In this document: positions 8,798 to 15,518 of the stretch, one piece after another
Layout: each line of letters opens with the position of its first letter
How positions within the stretch are numbered: position 1 is the stretch's first letter
Assembly (NCBI RefSeq): GCF_004349135.1
Contig: NZ_SMFN01000016.1
Span: 1 to 64,000, forward strand
DNA: 64,000 nt
From: Flavobacterium sandaracinum
GTDB taxonomy: Bacteria > Bacteroidota > Bacteroidia > Flavobacteriales > Flavobacteriaceae
Reading direction: 5' to 3'
Position numbers and translations under genes: made by a program
The notes under the pieces: model-generated
Seen by the model: only the letters and a program-made list of their open reading frames with translations
What the model was told of the DNA's origin: nothing
Databases searched by the model: none

Positions 8798-8823
8798 AAC
8801 CTTAACCCTTTATATCCAAATCA

Positions 8824-8855
8824 AAACCTTGCACGAAATTGTAAGGTTTTTTTAT
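8824..8855 (+). terminator. Rho-independent terminator after the lipoprotein gene
   Basis: Stem AAACCTTGC (8824-8832) pairs with GTAAGGTTT (8841-8849) with one wobble. It is followed by a run of T. Confidence 0.8.
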
Positions 8856-9005
8856 GCTCAAAAAAGTAAAATCAAGAAAAAATAATTGCTTTTCCACAAA
8901 GTTTGATTAATACATGCCACATAAAAAGCTATCACATGCTGCATGGATGCAACAAAAAAAGCAAAACCAAAATAACAACTTTATTAATTTATAGCAATCT
9001 TATAT

Positions 9006-9039
9006 CAAGAGGTTTAAGATTCCAGCGTTAAACCTTTTG
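9006..9039. promoter_or_regulatory. Stable intergenic hairpin of unknown role
   Basis: CAAGAGGTTTAA (9006-9017) can pair with TTAAACCTTTTG (9028-9039) along 12 positions with one wobble and a 10-base loop. It is the only clear structure in the 450-base gap before the ankyrin gene apart from the promoter at 9147-9180. There is no T run, so it is not an obvious terminator. Confidence 0.35.
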
Positions 9040-9146
9040 TTGATTTTGGTGTCAAAAAAGAATAGTTTGGAATAACATATTTATAGTTGATGAAAACAAA
9101 AAGTTAAATGTGAACCGGTAAAAAAAAAGTGATAATTGCTGTTTTA

Positions 9147-9180
9147 TTTGCTTGTCATATTAGATTAATTTTTACATTTG
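9147..9180 (+). promoter_or_regulatory. Bacteroidota-type promoter for the ankyrin gene and downstream cluster
   Basis: TTTG at 9147-9150 (-33 region; a further TTG lies at 9152) and TACATTTG at 9173-9180, an exact TAnnTTTG -7 box. The spacing is 22 (or 18) bases. The predicted start would leave a leader of about 60 bases before the ATG at 9248. Confidence 0.6.
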
Positions 9181-9247
9181 CATTATTCTTATTTAATCTA
9201 AATAATAATACAATTTACTTTACTAGTTAAGAAACCCTATAAAAATT

Positions 9248-10744
9248 ATGAAAAAGAATCTTTTCATCTCTTTTGCCTTAGTCGCTACTTTATTTGTGAA
9301 TGCGCAGCAAAAAAACACACTTTTGGAGCAGTCATTCTGGAAAACATCACCAGATGTAAATGCAGTTAAAGCTGAAATTGCAAAAGGAAACAGCCCTTCA
9401 GCCGCTACTCCAAATGCTTTTGATGTTACTGTTATGGCTATTAATAATGATGCGCCTGCAGCAACAATACAATTCTTACTGGAGCAACCCGGGAATGAAG
9501 TCAGCAAATTGACGCACGACAATCGTATTTATTTACACTGGGCCGCCAACAAAGGAAATGTAGCAATTGTAGAATACCTTATCAGCAAAGGATCTGATCT
9601 TAATTTAGAAGACAGCAAAGGAGAAACTCCGCTAACATTTGCAGCTATTGGAGGTCAAAACAATACCGCACTGTATGATGCCTTTTTTAAAGCAGGAACC
9701 GATCCAAAGAAAAAATACAAAGACGGTGTCAACCTGTTATTAATGGCTATCGCATCCGACAAAAACCTCGCGCTTACTACTTATTTCACAACCAAAGGAA
9801 TGTCAATTAAGGATACTGACAGTGATGGAAATACCGCTTTTGATTACGCTGCAAAATCAGGCAACCTACCGCTATTAAAATCCCTATTAGAAAAAGGAGT
9901 AAAAAATACTGACAGTGCACTGCTGTTTGCAGCACAAGGTTCCCGTAGAGATGTGACACCTCTTGAAACCTACAAATACTTAGTTGAAGATTTAAAAATC
10001 AAACCTACTGCGACAAGCAAATCAGGTGAAACGGTGCTTCATTTATTGGCAAGCAAACCCAACCAAACCGAAATTATAAATTACTTTTTATCCAAAGGCG
10101 TAGATGCTAATAAAGTCAATAATGAAGGAAATACAGCAGTAATGGCATCTGCTTCTGCTAGAGATAATGCAGTATTAGAACTGTTATTACCAATAGTAAA
10201 AAACAACAATGTTCAAAATCTAAAAGGAGAATCGGCATTGACAATGGCTATAAAAGCAGGAACTCCTGAGGCAGTTGCACTTCTTTTGAACAAAGGTGCA
10301 GATGCAAAAGTACTGGATAAAGACGGGAACAATTTAGGATATTACCTGATTCAATCCTACAAACCATCAGGTCGCGGACCAGAGGCAACGACTCAAGATC
10401 CTTTTGAAACCAAAATAAAATTACTTCAAGATAAAGGTTTAAACTTAGCCACTCCTCAAAAAGACGGGAATACATTGTATCATTTCGCCATAATTAAAAA
10501 CGATTTGGCTTTATTGAAAAAAATCGGCGCTTTAAACATCGATATCAATGCCAAAAACAAAGATGGTTTAACAGCATTGCACAAAGCAGCTATGATTTCT
10601 AAAGACGATGCGATATTGAAATACTTAGTATCCATAGGTGCAAAAACAGACATTATCACTGATTTTGACGAGAGTGCCTATGCCTTGGCACAAGAAAATG
10701 AGACATTAACAAAAAACAAAATTTCTTTAGACTTTTTAAAATAA
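9248..10744 (+). CDS. Exported ankyrin-repeat protein
   Basis: A 498-residue protein with a signal peptide (MKKNLFISFALVATLFVNA, then QQKN). Nearly the whole mature chain is built of ankyrin repeats, roughly nine to ten. Recognisable units include DNRIYLHWAANKGNVAIVEY, KGETPLTFAAIGG, DGNTAFDYAAKSGNLPLLKS, GETVLHLLASKPN, KGESALTMAIKAGTPEAVAL and DGLTALHKAAMI. Ankyrin repeats bind other proteins, so a periplasmic scaffold or chaperone role is likely. The DUF2271 gene begins 16 bases downstream and the PepSY reductase and apbE follow, so it probably serves that flavin electron-transfer system. The specific partner is inferred, not shown. Confidence 0.88.
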   Translation: MKKNLFISFALVATLFVNAQQKNTLLEQSFWKTSPDVNAVKAEIAKGNSPSAATPNAFDVTVMAINNDAPAATIQFLLEQPGNEVSKLTHDNRIYLHWAANKGNVAIVEYLISKGSDLNLEDSKGETPLTFAAIGGQNNTALYDAFFKAGTDPKKKYKDGVNLLLMAIASDKNLALTTYFTTKGMSIKDTDSDGNTAFDYAAKSGNLPLLKSLLEKGVKNTDSALLFAAQGSRRDVTPLETYKYLVEDLKIKPTATSKSGETVLHLLASKPNQTEIINYFLSKGVDANKVNNEGNTAVMASASARDNAVLELLLPIVKNNNVQNLKGESALTMAIKAGTPEAVALLLNKGADAKVLDKDGNNLGYYLIQSYKPSGRGPEATTQDPFETKIKLLQDKGLNLATPQKDGNTLYHFAIIKNDLALLKKIGALNIDINAKNKDGLTALHKAAMISKDDAILKYLVSIGAKTDIITDFDESAYALAQENETLTKNKISLDFLK

Positions 10745-10760
10745 AAAATAGCATAAACAC

Positions 10761-11243
10761 ATGAAATCAATCTTAAAAATCAGCCTTTCAATAGCCTTTT
10801 TGTTCCTTGTATCAGCTACGGTTTCAGCACAAACGAGCAAATACAAATGCATGCTGCAAATGTCAAACTACATGGGCGAAGGCGCTTATATTGTAGTTTC
10901 ACTTGTAAACGCTAAAGGCGAATATGTAAAAACATTGTATGTAATGGGTGACGATAAAAAATGGTACAAAACGATAAAAGAATGGCATAAATTCTATTCT
11001 AAAAAACCAGAAAACATCAGTGCCAAAACGGGAGCTTCTGTAACTGGCGGCGATCGCAGCATTACCACAATAGAAATTGAAGATGCTAAAATCAACAAAG
11101 GCTATAAATTGCGATTTGAAACTGCAGTAGAAGATCATAAATATTACGCCGCTGATTTAGAAATTCCGCTTACAACGGAAGGAATTGCTGCAAAAACGGA
11201 AGGTAAAAACTACATTCGCTACGTAAGATTGAACAAAATCTAA
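10761..11243 (+). CDS. DUF2271 exported protein with ApbE-type flavinylation motif
   Basis: A 160-residue protein with a signal peptide (residues 1-23, ending SATVSA before QTSK). The mature domain fits DUF2271, a small periplasmic family that in many genomes travels with PepSY-domain reductases and ApbE. Residues 90-95 read TGASVT, matching the (S/T)GA(S/T)x(T/S) site where ApbE attaches FMN. S93 would be the acceptor by analogy with NqrC. This makes the protein a likely covalent FMN carrier outside the cytoplasm. It lies 16 bases after the ankyrin gene and about 90 before the PepSY reductase, with a strong hairpin in the second gap. Family call is fairly firm; flavinylation is inferred from motif and context. 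Confidence 0.82.
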   Translation: MKSILKISLSIAFLFLVSATVSAQTSKYKCMLQMSNYMGEGAYIVVSLVNAKGEYVKTLYVMGDDKKWYKTIKEWHKFYSKKPENISAKTGASVTGGDRSITTIEIEDAKINKGYKLRFETAVEDHKYYAADLEIPLTTEGIAAKTEGKNYIRYVRLNKI

Positions 11244-11270
11244 AACAAACAGCTTTTACATCAAACCATT

Positions 11271-11314
11271 TAAGTCATATGAGCTTTTACAAAACGTAAA
11301 ACTTATATGGCTTA
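11271..11314 (+). promoter_or_regulatory. Long intercistronic hairpin between DUF2271 and PepSY-reductase genes
   Basis: TAAGTCATATGAGCTTTTAC (11271-11290) pairs with GTAAAACTTATATGGCTTA (11296-11314) across almost the full length with wobble pairs and one bulge, loop AAAAC. It has no T tract. It is related in sequence to the inverted repeat at 34345-34511. It could protect or split the message between the two genes. Confidence 0.5.
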
Positions 11315-11334
11315 TATGTTAAAATTTATTACCA

Positions 11335-13533
11335 ATGACTCTTTCTTTTTGGCGTTACTCACACTTGGCTTTGGCTGTATTTTCTGCTGCGTTTCTAGTA
11401 TTAGCATCCGTAACTGGCGTCATCCTTGCCGTCGATGCCATACAAGAGAAAACACCGCCCTACAAAGTAGAAAATTTCGAAAAGATAACCCTTGGAAAAA
11501 CCTTACCTGTACTTAAAAAAGCATATCCTGAAATAACGGAATTGAGTGTTAACCACAATCAATTTGTAACTCTGCAAGGTATCGACCAAGAAGACAATGA
11601 TATCAATGCCTATATTAACGCAAGAACTGGAAAAATACTTGGACAACCCATCAAAAAAGGGGAATTTATACAATGGACAACAGCGCTGCACCGTTCTTTA
11701 TTTCTTAAAGAAACCGGGCGTTTTATTGTGGGCTTTATTTCCTTTTTGTTGGTATTAATTTCCATTTCGGGTTTTGCTTTAATACTCAACCGCCAAAGAA
11801 GTCTTCGCAGTCTATTTTCTAAAATTGTAAAAGAAAATTTCGCTCAATATTACCATGTTTTTTTAGGCCGATTATCGCTGATTCCGATTCTGATTATCGC
11901 ACTTTCAGGAACCTATTTAACCCTGGAAAAGTTTAATTTTTTCATCGAAAAAACCGATTCAGAAGAAAAAACCGAAATAGTTGCAACTACTCCTATTTCC
12001 AAAAAAGGTACTGCTACTTCTATTTTTAAAAACACGCTTCTGGCTGATGTTAAAAAAATTGAATTCCCATTTTCAGATGATCCCGAAGAATATTATATTA
12101 TTACATTACAAGACCGAGAAATAGAAGTCAACCAGATTACCGGAGCCATTGTCAGCGAAACTCCTTTTCCGCTTCAAACTTTAGTATCGGATTGGAGTCT
12201 AGATTTACATACCGGTCGCAGCAGTATTTTATGGGCGATAATTTTAGGAATCGCGAGTTTAAATATTCTCTTTTTTATCTACTCGGGTTTTGCCATGACA
12301 TTAAAACGAAGAGCGAGCCGCATTAAAAATAAATACAAAGCTGAAGAAAGTACTTTCATTTTGTTAGTTGGTTCCGAAAATGGTAGTTCGCTATTATTTG
12401 CCAATGCGATTCAAAAACAATTGCTTGCGCACGGAAAAAAAGTTTTCCTTACCGAGTTAAATAATTATTCGGTATATCCAAAAGCAGAACATCTTATCGT
12501 ATTTACTTCAACACACGGATTGGGCGATGCGCCATCTAATGCGAGTAAATTTGTTTCGCTTATCAATAAGACGGTACAGCAGCAAAAAATTAATGTTTCG
12601 GTAGTCGGATTTGGGTCGAAAGCGTATCCAGATTTTTGTGGTTATGCACAGGAAATTGATGTTTTATTAGCACAACAAAATTGGGCGAAACGCTTGTTAG
12701 AATTACAAACCGTAAACGACAAATCAGCAGACGAATTTGTAAGTTGGGTGAAATTATGGAGTGCCAAAACAGGAATTCCACTTTCGGCTACTCCATCTTT
12801 ATACAATGAAGTTCCAAAAGGTTTACAAAAAATGACAGTACTTGATAAAACGGCTATTTCTGATACCGAGCATACCTTTTTGCTCACATTACGCACCAGC
12901 AGAAGCGCTAAGTTTACTTCGGGTGACCTCTTAGCTATTTATCCAGCAAACGACAACCAAGAACGACTTTACTCTATCGGGAATCATAACGGCAACATAC
13001 AATTAGTGGTGAAATTACATCCTACAGGGTTAGGTTCTGGCTATTTATATACTATGGAACCGGGTTCTGTTTTCAAAGCACGAATCATTAAGAACCAAAA
13101 TTTCCATTTCCCTAAAAAAGCATCTAAAGTAGCGTTGATTTCAAATGGAACAGGGATTGCTCCTTTTTTGGGAATGATAGAACAAAATAAGAAAAAAACC
13201 GAAATTCATTTGTATTGTGGCTTTCGAAAAGCAACTGAAACTGTTTTAGGATATGAAAAATTTGCTGATGAAATGATTAAAAAACAACAACTTAAAAGTT
13301 TTTATCTGGCTTTATCCCGTGAAGTAAACCATCACTATGTAATGGATCTAATCAACCGAGATGCTGATTTTTTTATGGATTTACTGTCACAAGGAGGCGT
13401 TGTAATGATTTGCGGTTCCCTTGCGATGCAAAAAGATGTGGAAGCAGCTCTTGACACACTTTGTCTAAACAAAACAGGGAAGGGAATTGCTGACTACAAA
13501 ACTAATGATCAAGTGCTGACGGATTGTTATTAA
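11335..13533 (+). CDS. PepSY-domain membrane reductase fused to flavodoxin and CysJ-like FAD/NAD(P)H domains
   Basis: A 732-residue four-span membrane flavoreductase. The N-terminal half is a PepSY_TM core: spans near 9-33, 130-151, 175-197 and 296-321, with an extracytoplasmic PepSY loop and histidines H119 (TALHRSLF), H174 and H292 that may bind heme. A flavodoxin domain follows (about 340-475, phosphate loop GSENGSS), then a CysJ-like FAD module (RLYSIGNH at 544) and an NAD(P)H-binding module (SNGTGIAPF, YCGFR, MICGSLAMQKDV). Known relatives reduce ferric siderophores or act in flavin-based electron export. It should move electrons from cytoplasmic NAD(P)H across the inner membrane. Neighbouring DUF2271 and apbE genes suggest a flavinylated acceptor. 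Confidence 0.9.
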   Translation: MTLSFWRYSHLALAVFSAAFLVLASVTGVILAVDAIQEKTPPYKVENFEKITLGKTLPVLKKAYPEITELSVNHNQFVTLQGIDQEDNDINAYINARTGKILGQPIKKGEFIQWTTALHRSLFLKETGRFIVGFISFLLVLISISGFALILNRQRSLRSLFSKIVKENFAQYYHVFLGRLSLIPILIIALSGTYLTLEKFNFFIEKTDSEEKTEIVATTPISKKGTATSIFKNTLLADVKKIEFPFSDDPEEYYIITLQDREIEVNQITGAIVSETPFPLQTLVSDWSLDLHTGRSSILWAIILGIASLNILFFIYSGFAMTLKRRASRIKNKYKAEESTFILLVGSENGSSLLFANAIQKQLLAHGKKVFLTELNNYSVYPKAEHLIVFTSTHGLGDAPSNASKFVSLINKTVQQQKINVSVVGFGSKAYPDFCGYAQEIDVLLAQQNWAKRLLELQTVNDKSADEFVSWVKLWSAKTGIPLSATPSLYNEVPKGLQKMTVLDKTAISDTEHTFLLTLRTSRSAKFTSGDLLAIYPANDNQERLYSIGNHNGNIQLVVKLHPTGLGSGYLYTMEPGSVFKARIIKNQNFHFPKKASKVALISNGTGIAPFLGMIEQNKKKTEIHLYCGFRKATETVLGYEKFADEMIKKQQLKSFYLALSREVNHHYVMDLINRDADFFMDLLSQGGVVMICGSLAMQKDVEAALDTLCLNKTGKGIADYKTNDQVLTDCY

Positions 13534-13535
13534 AT

Positions 13536-13580
13536 CCTCTCCCCTGCCCTCTGCAAAGGAGAGGAGCCGAAACTGGATTG
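13536..13580 (+). repeat. GGAGAGG-type intergenic repeat
   Basis: TCCTCTCCCCTGCCCTCTGC-AAAGGAGAGGA forms an inverted repeat (CCTCTCC with GGAGAGG) followed by GCCGAAACTGGATT. A diverged partner occurs at about 62147-62188 (CTCTGTAAAGGAGAGGAAGCCGAAGCTAGATT). Both directly follow a gene on the plus strand. Confidence 0.55.
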
Positions 13581-13713
13581 AAAAATTTATGATTAATCGA
13601 TTTCCCTCTAAGGACTTTTTTGGGGCTTTTAGGTATTTAAATAAATAATGACATCTACAAGGTTTTGGAAATCTTGCAGGAATAAAAATGTTATTACAAG
13701 CAAACTCCTTTTA

Positions 13714-13840
13714 CTACGCGTGAGTGATGGCAGTGGAGCTCTTTTTTGGAGAGGCTTTTTTCAGCCTCTCCAAAAAAAGCGGGAACGAACAGCACGACCC
13801 GAAGTCTCTTCTTTTTTGATGAGACTTCGGGGCACGCCCA
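13714..13840 (+). ncRNA. Three-way-junction structured element (Flavo-1-like), copy 2, upstream of apbE
   Basis: Outer helix GCGTG near 13719 pairs with CACGC near 13833. Within it, hairpin 1 is CTTTTTTGGAGAGGC (13741-13755) with GCCTCTCCAAAAAAAG (13764-13779), and hairpin 2 is CCGAAGTCTC (13799-13808) with GAGACTTCGG (13821-13830). The junction strands GTGATGGCAGTGGA and AGCGGGAACGAACAGCACGA resemble those in the copies before topB (TGATGGAAGTGGCA, AGCGGACAGCAGGA) and cysS. It ends about 20 bases before the apbE start, in the same direction. The 67-codon frame running through it is not coding. The rest of the 328-base gap is the repeat at 13536-13580 and plain AT-rich DNA. Confidence 0.6.
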
Positions 13841-13861
13841 AATTATTTTAAACCAAATTTT

Positions 13862-14863
13862 ATGTCTAAAAAATACTTTTTTTTAATGATTACGTTGCTT
13901 CTTGTGGTTCAAGGAAGTTATGGGCAAGCTTTACGAAAAAGAACCACCTTACTTATGGGCAGCCGGTTTGACATTACCATCGTTGCTAAAGATTCGGTAT
14001 CTGCAGAACAAAACATAGATGCTGTTATTGCCGAAATTACCCGAATAGAAAATTTAATTTCTGATTGGAAACCGGACTCGCAGGTCTCTGAAGTGAATAA
14101 AAATGCGGGAATTCGTTCCGTGAAAGTGGACAAAGAAGTTTTTGAATTAACACAAAGAGCGATTCGGTTTTCTGAAATCACTAATGGCGGTTTTGACATC
14201 AGTTTTGCGGCAATGGATAAAATCTGGAAGTTTGACGGTTCCATGACTGCCATGCCTTCGGCGGAAGCCATTCAGAAATCGGTTGAAAAAGTGGGTTACA
14301 AAAATATAATCTTAGATAGCGTTCAATCCACCATTTTCCTGAAATTAAAAGGGATGAAAATTGGATTTGGCGCTTTAGGAGAAGGATATGCCACAGATAA
14401 ATGCCGTGACATGATGCTAGCAAAAGGCATCAAAGCCGGTATTATAAACGGATCAGGAGACATGAGTACTTGGGGGAAACAGCCGAATGGAAAAACTTGG
14501 AATATTGGTATTACGAATCCTTTTTATCCCGAAAAACTATTGGCTGTAGTTCCCTTAGAACAAGATGCTGTAACCACCTCGGGCAGCTACGAAAAATTTG
14601 TTGTTTTTAATGGCAAACGCTATTCGCATATTATCAATCCGTCAACTGGTTATCCCGCTACAGGATTATGTAGCGTGACAGTTTTTGGACCAAATGCAGA
14701 AACCGCAAACGGCTTGAGTACTTCTTTAATGGTTCTAGGCAAAAAAGCAGGACTGCTTTTGCTACATAAATACGCTGATTATAGTTGCGTGATGATTACA
14801 GATGACGGAAAAGTAGTGAAATCAAAAAACTTCCGAATCAAGAAATTTAAGGCACGACTTTGA
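13862..14863 (+). CDS. apbE: FAD:protein FMN transferase
   Basis: A 333-residue exported ApbE. The signal peptide is residues 1-21 (ending GSYG before QAL). The enzyme splits FAD and attaches FMN through a phosphoester to a Thr or Ser of target proteins, outside the inner membrane. Family motifs are FDISFAAMDKIW, a GALGEGYATD segment, NGSGDMSTWG, TTSGSYEKF and HIINPSTGYPA. In the usual Mg-binding stretch (normally ADGLSTA) this protein has ETANGLSTSLMVLG, so the common aspartate is N283. The likely substrate is the DUF2271 protein encoded 2.6 kb upstream. A structured element lies just before the start. Confidence 0.94.
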   Translation: MSKKYFFLMITLLLVVQGSYGQALRKRTTLLMGSRFDITIVAKDSVSAEQNIDAVIAEITRIENLISDWKPDSQVSEVNKNAGIRSVKVDKEVFELTQRAIRFSEITNGGFDISFAAMDKIWKFDGSMTAMPSAEAIQKSVEKVGYKNIILDSVQSTIFLKLKGMKIGFGALGEGYATDKCRDMMLAKGIKAGIINGSGDMSTWGKQPNGKTWNIGITNPFYPEKLLAVVPLEQDAVTTSGSYEKFVVFNGKRYSHIINPSTGYPATGLCSVTVFGPNAETANGLSTSLMVLGKKAGLLLLHKYADYSCVMITDDGKVVKSKNFRIKKFKARL

Positions 14864-14956
14864 TTTTTCAAAGCTTAACCTCCAAATTAAAATGCCTTTT
14901 CTATAAAAACAAACTTCCTATTTGTGGTTAGAATGTAACATAACACCTTATTTGAA

Positions 14957-15065
14957 AGCAATTTCATAAATCTAGCACATCTCTTTAGGGCGTGTTAGGC
15001 ATTGCATAGAAAATTTCCATCATTCGCATCGCCGCATTATTATTCGCATCTTCCGTTTTTAACAC
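14957..15065 (-). pseudogene. higA: Remnant of a HigA-type antitoxin
   Basis: Downstream of the toxin relic, the minus-strand frame starting at 15065 reads LKTEDANNNAAMRMMEIFYA, then MPNTP, a TAA stop at 14985-14987, then RDVLDL and another stop. This matches the start of HigA antitoxins (KTE ... A ... R ... IF.A ... TPE.DEL.LL) with two stops and no helix-turn-helix left. The order toxin then antitoxin is the normal HigBA order. No ATG start is present. Confidence 0.5.
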
Positions 15066-15089
15066 TTTTCAATTCATCATATTTTCTAT

Positions 15090-15410
15090 TTATTTTATTA
15101 AAATTTTAGTGTCAAATGCAATAATTTCGATATTGATTTTATCATATTCCTCGTGCGTTCCAAACCAAATAACATAACAAGCGCTTTGTAGAAAATTGAC
15201 AGTAATCACTAGCCGAAAATCATTCCCTTTGCTATTAAAAACTACTCTTCTATTGTTGACAATATTGGCATTACTCTAAACTTCTTTAAGTTTAATAAAT
15301 GTTTTAAATTCAACTTTTGAAAGCTTATTACACCAAATTAATAAAGGCATTTTTGCCAAGGGAAATACTTTGATATAATGTGAAATCATTTTCTTTACTA
15401 AAATTTTCAT
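15090..15410 (-). pseudogene. higB: HigB-type mRNA interferase toxin, inactivated by an in-frame stop
   Basis: Reading the minus strand from the ATG at 15410 gives 106 residues interrupted once, by TAG at 15276-15278 (codon 45). The start is MKILVKKMISHYIKVFP. After the stop the frame continues with NANIVNNRRVVFNSKGNDFR, LVITVNF and YVIWFGTHEEYDKIN. These are the signature segments of HigB toxins (NNRVVFNIKGN.YRL, FVGTH.EYDKI). Length and frame are otherwise intact, so a single substitution may have killed it. It is the only gene-like content of the 655-base gap between apbE and valS, together with the antitoxin remnant. Confidence 0.82.
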
Positions 15411-15461
15411 ACACAAATACATTTTTGAATTTTTCAATTTGCGAATTTTTAAAAACCAAAA

Positions 15462-15494
15462 AATCCCATCTACTTTTTTACAGTAGATGGGATT
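15462..15494 (-). terminator. Terminator after valS
   Basis: A perfect 12-bp stem AATCCCATCTAC (15462-15473) with GTAGATGGGATT (15483-15494). It is followed on the minus strand by a T-rich stretch. Confidence 0.85.
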
Positions 15495-15518
15495 CTATAT
15501 TTCTAAAAGATTGAACGG

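Follow-up and report, generated by a model that had tools for sequence, protein, structure and literature searches.

An exported ankyrin-repeat protein consistently paired with DUF2271 in a Flavobacteriales flavin electron-transfer cluster, most likely an iron-chelate reductase

The cluster described here lies in a 64,000-nucleotide stretch of Flavobacterium sandaracinum DNA (contig NZ_SMFN01000016.1, positions 1 to 64,000; this whole stretch is called the window), where four genes follow one another on the forward strand. They encode an exported ankyrin-repeat protein of 498 amino acids (aa), termed ANK below (9248..10744; from the open reading frame (ORF) list, Pfam and a structure model), an exported 160-aa DUF2271 protein predicted to be a flavin carrier (10761..11243; ORF list and Pfam), a 732-aa PepSY_TM membrane protein of diheme type fused to flavodoxin and CysJ/P450-reductase-like FAD-NADPH domains (11335..13533), and an exported 333-aa ApbE, an FAD:protein FMN transferase (13862..14863; ORF list, Pfam and NCBIfam). 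All four ORFs were confirmed at these coordinates on the + strand, with domains identified by Pfam, in the order given by a preliminary description of the locus. The DUF2271-PepSY-ApbE core is an already published system; the ankyrin protein is the new part, and its coupling to the flavin carrier across genomes is our main finding. Gene content, motifs, pairing, neighbourhood and a shared promoter dyad were all computed.

Domain anatomy and the published core

A Pfam scan of five window proteins returned Ank_2 (6e-42) for ANK, DUF2271 (PF10029, 7e-38, over the cut-off) for the predicted carrier and ApbE (PF02424, 1e-80) for the transferase; the signal-peptide-like N-termini of these three proteins were judged by eye, not by a predictor. 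In the fusion, the scan delimited a PepSY_TM region (PF03929, 6e-33, over the cut-off; residues 10-325, 11362..12309), a flavodoxin domain (Flavodoxin_1, 2e-14; residues 344-465, 12364..12729) and FAD and NAD(P)H binding domains (NAD_binding_1, 5e-8; FAD_binding_6, 4e-5; residues 500-703, 12832..13443), the last also placed by PDB comparison. Four histidines of the membrane part, H10, H119, H174 and H292, are kept in 129/129 homologues, and we infer from the published diheme PepSY structure, cited by Huang et al. 2024 (PMC11334425), that they are the four heme ligands. The solved structures nearest to the reductase half in a PDB search are nitric oxide synthase, P450 reductase and CysJ chains. 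The NCBIfam cysJ model matches the fusion at 2e-32, and the CysJ-like label of the preliminary description is fair, though the score is 112.6 bits against a model cut-off of 668. R544-x-Y546-S547, G605-T606-G607, S661-R662, C693-G694 and a C-terminal Tyr of the fusion are invariant or near-invariant, and we read them as FAD- and NADPH-site residues like those of CysJ and P450 reductase.

The flavinylation motif of the window DUF2271 protein, [S/T]GA[S/T], reads T90-G-A-S93 in the alignment (11028..11039, + strand), its last residue presumably being the FMN acceptor; the motif is canonical in 124/131 DUF2271 proteins, the window TGAS included. A PDB sequence search with this protein gave a best match of only E 0.15, and a fold search with its model gave nothing at E 0.001, residues 78-91 of the model, which precede the motif's end, having pLDDT <50. 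In the remaining 7/131 proteins a GET motif (VGET, TGET, AGET or SGET) replaces GA[S/T]; these are L048:8788-9276, L208:7368-7856 and those of loci L198, L200, L202, L205 and L207. Within the fetched stretches, ApbE was present at 0/7 GET-motif loci versus 107/124 canonical-motif loci. ANK and PepSY are both kept at 5/7 GET-motif loci, and L048 and L208, where the DUF2271 gene is an orphan, have neither. This pattern suggests that flavinylation was lost in some lineages while ANK and PepSY persisted. The window genome (G000) encodes two ApbE proteins, one of them on another contig, and genome G587 encodes a single one, inside the cluster. FMN_bind and NQR2/RnfD gave no match in either genome, and DUF2271 is the only ApbE substrate class found there among these three.

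In Méheust et al. 2021 (PMC8238504), the PepSY-like class is defined by a PepSY-like protein (PF03929 or PF16357) in a flavinylation-associated cluster; 3220 such clusters are counted, 2833 of them with DUF2271, and 1077 PepSY genes carry an NAD-binding domain. The same paper proposes iron reduction as the function and reports a DUF2271 protein of another bacterium proven to be flavinylated by its ApbE at [S/T]GA[S/T]. The window cluster belongs to this class, with a PF03929 gene directly after DUF2271 and before ApbE, a TGAS-bearing substrate and an exported ApbE. It shares with those systems the three protein classes, the motif, the NAD-binding fusion (a subset there) and the proposed iron reduction. 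Unlike them, it is headed by an exported ankyrin protein, and DUF4198, a frequent but non-defining partner there, is not among the five window proteins scanned. The word ankyrin does not occur in the main text of that paper. The route from NAD(P)H to a predicted flavinylated carrier that the preliminary description had proposed is thus supported by domain anatomy, by conserved residues and by a DUF2271 protein that is a proven ApbE substrate elsewhere.

The genes flanking ANK are a DUF6265 gene and the DUF2271 gene. The gap between the PepSY and ApbE genes (13534-13861; median 71 nt among the same-strand relatives) holds a perfect 15-nt inverted repeat with a 6-nt loop (13742..13777), found by repeat search, and beside it a second strong inverted repeat (13798-13831). 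The first repeat may act as a terminator, in which case ApbE could have a transcript of its own in the window strain. It was not called by the terminator scan, which was uninformative (6 found versus 5.1 expected), as was a sigma-70 promoter scan (23 versus 22.9).

Coupling of the ankyrin protein to DUF2271

Loci were collected from both ends of the pair, those found via DUF2271 (L031-L052) testing for ANK and those found via ANK testing for DUF2271; the ANK-found loci include 80 named ones, the best 80 of 557, with Flavobacterium or Flavobacteriaceae titles (F. hibernum and F. saccharophilum among them) and one [Flexibacter]. ANK was present in 99/103 loci, each time with DUF2271 directly 3' of it. 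The four loci without it are two fusions (L043, L045), the orphan DUF2271 of L048 and a contig edge (L052). Across all fetched loci holding both genes, ANK and DUF2271 stand on the same strand and in the same order in 128/128, separated by 1-345 nt (median 59), and because order and strand are kept throughout, the arrangement is beyond chance. ApbE was not in the fetched stretch at 21 of these 128 loci. In the two fusion loci, ApbE and DUF2271 form a single ORF (L043:7781-9289, L045:8777-10291), and these 18-kb loci hold no match to the window ANK or PepSY. Some of the named Flavobacterium loci have an ANK 92% identical to the window protein.

Presence and absence follow the same rule. Among 344 Flavobacteriales genomes, ANK was found in 62, DUF2271 in the same 62 and neither in 282; in 62/62 the two genes are adjacent on one strand with DUF2271 second, as judged by eye from the rows. 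Since 15 of the 62 helped to build the ANK profile and the samples overlap, 47 of these genomes count as independent of it. In a sample of 296 genomes of the phylum (ANK profile threshold E 1e-50), DUF2271 exceeded its cut-off in 22, two of which (G150 and G190) have only an ApbE-DUF2271 fusion; ANK occurs in exactly the 20 genomes with a non-fused DUF2271, 13 more genomes with weak, partial, sub-cut-off DUF2271 matches having been excluded. The ANK family is well delimited by score (at least 522 bits in the order sample and at least 488 in the phylum sample, the next ankyrin of the order sample scoring 112). By these counts, the Bacteroidota sampled have ANK as an obligate part of the cluster. 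The synteny with the other genes, on which the preliminary description had staked its reading, proved near-absolute (62/62, 128/128).

That the ankyrin gene is a chance passenger, retained through the common descent of a short cluster, is very improbable. The distances of all four proteins correlate (r 0.885-0.960, 107 loci), as expected from shared descent alone, a measure by which co-evolution and shared descent are inseparable. Against a passenger stand the strict order, the fact that 0/62 DUF2271-bearing Flavobacteriales genomes lack ANK, and perfect coupling over a patchy spread, the pair being present in 33/48 same-genus genomes, always both or neither. The occurrence of a second ANK-DUF2271 pair in one genome also argues against it: in F. 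bizetiae, a second ANK (L138:19755-21251) follows a TonB-dependent receptor (TBDT) gene and a XusB-like gene directly beyond a complete first cluster, and a second DUF2271 match starts ~90 nt beyond it. Genome G254 has a tandem of two ANK genes at the edge of a contig, with its DUF2271 gene at a different contig edge.

Outside the phylum, sampling covered plasmid records and phages rather than the chromosomes of other phyla. Among 72,556 plasmid records, ANK was found in one (E 1e-20) and DUF2271 in 97 (E 1e-3); ANK was not found in the phage collection. The sole ANK plasmid is from Spirosoma and has DUF2271, PepSY, TonB receptor and ApbE genes nearby. On annotated Marinobacter, Hoeflea and Rhizobium plasmids, the genes before DUF2271 are small PepSY-domain or hypothetical ones, not an ankyrin gene, and the gene after it, of ~735 codons, is annotated as PepSY; a Janthinobacterium plasmid has a short PepSY_TM gene in an incomplete table, and the Cupriavidus stretch carries no annotation. 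The ankyrin protein thus looks like a Bacteroidota addition to a wider module.

Iron-uptake neighbours, promoter dyad and predicted function

Genes for iron uptake adjoin many of these clusters. Counting the searched TBDT types within 4.5 kb, a TBDT lies near 78/129 ANK clusters (53/80 named loci and 25/49 others). Four TBDTs were scanned: both beside L047 pass the siderophore-receptor cut-off TIGR01783, and those of L191 and L207 fail it. A TBDT and a XusB-like gene stand directly before ANK in L031, L040, L051, L191, L198, L201, L217 and L218; the XusB-like protein of L191 had no match in a PDB sequence search. A DUF4374 (XusB family) protein occurs at L192, HmuY beside the orphan DUF2271 at L048, and small PepSY proteins and DUF6607 also neighbour ANK clusters. 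In the closest relatives of the window (L047, L074-L076), a TBDT gene and a 380-382-aa PepSY gene lie between a 159-aa gene and ANK, with another TBDT gene after ApbE. The window gaps 8798-9247 and 14864-15518 hold neither of these TBDT genes and no small PepSY gene, searches with TBDT and XusB-like proteins gave no homologue adjoining the window cluster, and tblastn at E up to 1 gave no match to TBDT or PepSY relics in three window intergenic stretches. DUF6607 was identified by Pfam at L207:9391-10311 and L048:9601-10512, with similar ORFs in L200, L203, L210 and L211. Such genes lie upstream of ANK or of the orphan DUF2271, in several loci with a divergent TBDT gene opposite and the same dyad between, and their products are further candidate iron or heme uptake proteins.

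The dyad in question, TTATTTA-ATC-TAAATAA (9189..9205, + strand), is a candidate iron-responsive operator located 42 nt from the ANK start codon. Its pattern, TTATTTAWTCTAAATAA, was searched on either strand with at most 2 mismatches from -220 to +60, with expectations from mononucleotide shuffles. It precedes 87/130 ANK genes (1.2 expected) and 14/14, 21/24 and 33/46 genes of three TBDT groups; it is rare elsewhere (1/130 DUF2271, 0/129 PepSY, 0/109 ApbE, 0/38 XusB-like and 0/11 small PepSY genes). Among other ORFs it precedes 23/1157 (5.8 expected), several of which start like TBDT or DUF6607 proteins. These counts are not independent because the loci are related. At L200, L203, L207, L210 and L211, the dyad precedes a DUF6607-like gene that sits before ANK. 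The sole exact match in the window genome is the one before ANK; a two-mismatch copy (G000:C34:233999-234015) lies 3 nt before an 80-aa FeoA-like ORF, assigned by eye, which is followed by FeoB. As a specific marker within one genome the dyad was rejected, its counts being near those of a control. No usable published Flavobacterium Fur box was found in our literature search.

Published expression data point in the same direction. In Riemerella anatipestifer treated with 100 uM dipyridyl, the tabulated log2 increases are 3.31 for the TonB receptor B739_0173, 3.64 for the hypothetical B739_0174, 2.41 for B739_0175 (Ankyrin), 3.06 for B739_0176 (Predicted periplasmic protein) and 1.05 for B739_0177 (Nitric oxide synthase) (PMC5429918). 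Fur is reported to repress B739_0173 and to bind its promoter (PMC7976709). The order of B739_0173-0177 equals that of L191, from a genome of the same order (TBDT, XusB-like, ANK, DUF2271, PepSY, ApbE), and the nitric oxide synthase label fits the resemblance of the fusion's reductase half to that enzyme. Matched by gene order and product names, B739_0173-0177 looks like an ANK operon induced by iron limitation; around these tags, the text of the two papers carrying them does not discuss the ankyrin gene. The iron link suggested in the preliminary description is supported by the neighbouring TBDT and iron genes, the shared dyad, and the Riemerella induction and Fur binding.

Two characterised systems are instructive here. 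The Caulobacter CCNA_03155-03159 operon likewise has PepSY and DUF2271 genes and is described as a Fur target that is up at low iron and needed for fitness under EDTA chelation (PMC12004947); unlike the window cluster it includes DUF4198, and an ankyrin protein is unmentioned in that account. XusABC of Bacteroides comprises a TBDT, a lipoprotein and a PepSY inner-membrane iron-siderophore reductase (PMC13142918). XusB-like or DUF4374 genes and TBDT genes adjoin some ANK clusters in the same manner, but XusABC is described there as XusA, XusB and XusC, with no DUF2271, ApbE or ankyrin protein named, and the window cluster differs in turn by having no adjoining TBDT or XusB-like homologue, for the proteins searched.

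Taken together, we consider the cluster to be, with fair probability, a Bacteroidota variant of PepSY/DUF2271/ApbE electron transfer, most likely an iron-regulated iron-chelate reductase. Homology suggests the electron path, its direction and its substrate. The cytosolic CysJ-like domains would oxidise NADPH, and electrons would pass through FAD and the flavodoxin-type FMN to two bis-histidine hemes in the PepSY_TM membrane part, and from there to FMN covalently attached by ApbE to the periplasmic DUF2271 protein. The final acceptor would be Fe(III) on siderophores (or heme-type chelates) delivered by TonB-dependent receptors, and the Fe(II) product may enter via FeoB, which is present in the window genome.

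Several observations weigh against this assignment. No TBDT of the types searched was found within 4.5 kb of the window copy or of 50 others among the 129 loci. In the window genome, dyad matches at up to 2 mismatches number 41 versus 34 for a reversed-pattern control; the dyad is a different sequence from the quoted Riemerella Fur box, and upstream of the L191 TBDT gene it is missing (best 5 mismatches). The Riemerella match is one of gene order and product names, not of sequence, and each condition in the RNA-seq table is represented by a single library, the harvests having been made at differing densities (PMC5429918). The window genome has a second ApbE with no assigned substrate, and DUF3570, Flavodoxin_4 and FMN_red are further substrate classes beyond the three searched. 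ANK is not dependent on the canonical flavinylation site, because five ANK loci have a GET-motif DUF2271. It is distinctly unlikely, in our view, that the module serves another periplasmic acceptor, in protein repair or respiration for example, with iron merely regulating it. Such a function would suit the window copy, which has no adjoining receptor, and flavinylated systems have many acceptors (PMC8238504); the iron-uptake neighbours, the induction under iron limitation in Riemerella and the chelation phenotype of the Fur-regulated Caulobacter operon (PMC12004947) argue against it.

Possible roles of the ankyrin protein

The ANK structure model (pLDDT 92.4, pTM 0.83) is a helical solenoid of about a dozen ankyrin repeats, and all 50 matches listed in a fold search are ankyrin-repeat proteins. 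Computed over 41 sequences, conservation peaks in the first repeats (N23, W31, F58-D59, T89-H90-D91, R93, Y95 and W98), including an N-terminal block T-H-D-x-R-x-Y-x-x-W (residues 89-98), and recurs in a C-terminal cap (T471, F473, E475 and E483-N484-E485). H90, Y95 and W98 are invariant and R93 is near-invariant; the window ANK contains no cysteine. An assignment to the secreted effectors of the NCBIfam type was rejected, the matches reaching at most 76.5 bits against cut-offs of at least 450 and arising from generic ankyrin repeats. Nine same-genus genomes (5.0-5.9 Mb) hold a second, distant ankyrin match of 100-112 bits in frames of 450-462 codons (e.g. G444:C1:2964597-2965355), apparently another family.

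Docking would suit a solenoid that is conserved and carries an unusual block at one of its ends; a heme, flavin or chelate site would also be compatible with such a structure. From co-occurrence and fold only, we tentatively propose that ANK is a docking scaffold, a role whose probability we place somewhat short of even: it would form a periplasmic platform on which DUF2271, PepSY and perhaps the arriving chelate are kept close to one another. More doubtful is a narrower role as a periplasmic arm that would couple the reductase and the flavinylated DUF2271 protein to incoming ferric chelates or to the TonB receptor, a built-in scaffold for electron relay in Bacteroidota where Proteobacteria have small PepSY-domain or DUF4198 partners.

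Two other roles deserve consideration. It is rather unlikely that ANK is a maturation factor outside the electron path, one with heme or FMN as its ligand, or one that brings apo-DUF2271 to ApbE or apo-PepSY to its heme. The invariant His90, Tyr95 and Trp98 with the near-invariant Arg93 could form a ligand site, and there are precedents: Cj1386 of Campylobacter is titled an ankyrin-containing protein in heme trafficking to catalase, and a review reports the proposal that ankyrin partners stabilise catalase or aid heme binding. Yet ANK is kept beside a GET-motif DUF2271 (5/5 such loci with PepSY) and at the 21/128 loci without ApbE in the fetched stretch, and proteobacterial DUF2271-PepSY clusters presumably function without it. 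A periplasmic receptor for a ferric chelate (siderophore or heme), comparable to the binding protein of an ABC importer, is unlikely as well. Conserved aromatic and basic residues would suit such a receptor, as would proximity to TBDTs (some of siderophore type), to XusB-like lipoproteins and to the heme-type neighbours around DUF6607 genes; the one ANK family, however, stands beside several TBDT types or none, and its tie is to DUF2271-PepSY.

The preliminary description held that a role for the ankyrin protein had not been described. This may hold for the ANK family: our literature search found no paper tying an ankyrin protein to DUF2271 or to PepSY and siderophores, and among the titles listed for PepSY or flavinylation none that looked related, beyond the unremarked Riemerella table. 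The general idea has precedents in AnkB of Pseudomonas, periplasmic by its title, and Cj1386, both ankyrins genetically tied to a redox heme enzyme, catalase. Unlike these, ANK has no catalase gene beside it in the window, forms a solenoid of 498 aa and has its ties to a membrane reductase and a flavin carrier; the distinction is one of descriptions, not of sequence comparison.

Flavinylated ferric reductases are widespread. ANK and the carrier were never found apart among the 344 genomes of the order, and ANK has a dyad in common with TonB receptors; it therefore provides a handle on how a small soluble flavin carrier meets both its membrane donor and the iron it reduces. The association would also give a function to an exported Bacteroidota ankyrin family that has no annotation, and to the Riemerella cluster, one gene of which is labelled nitric oxide synthase.

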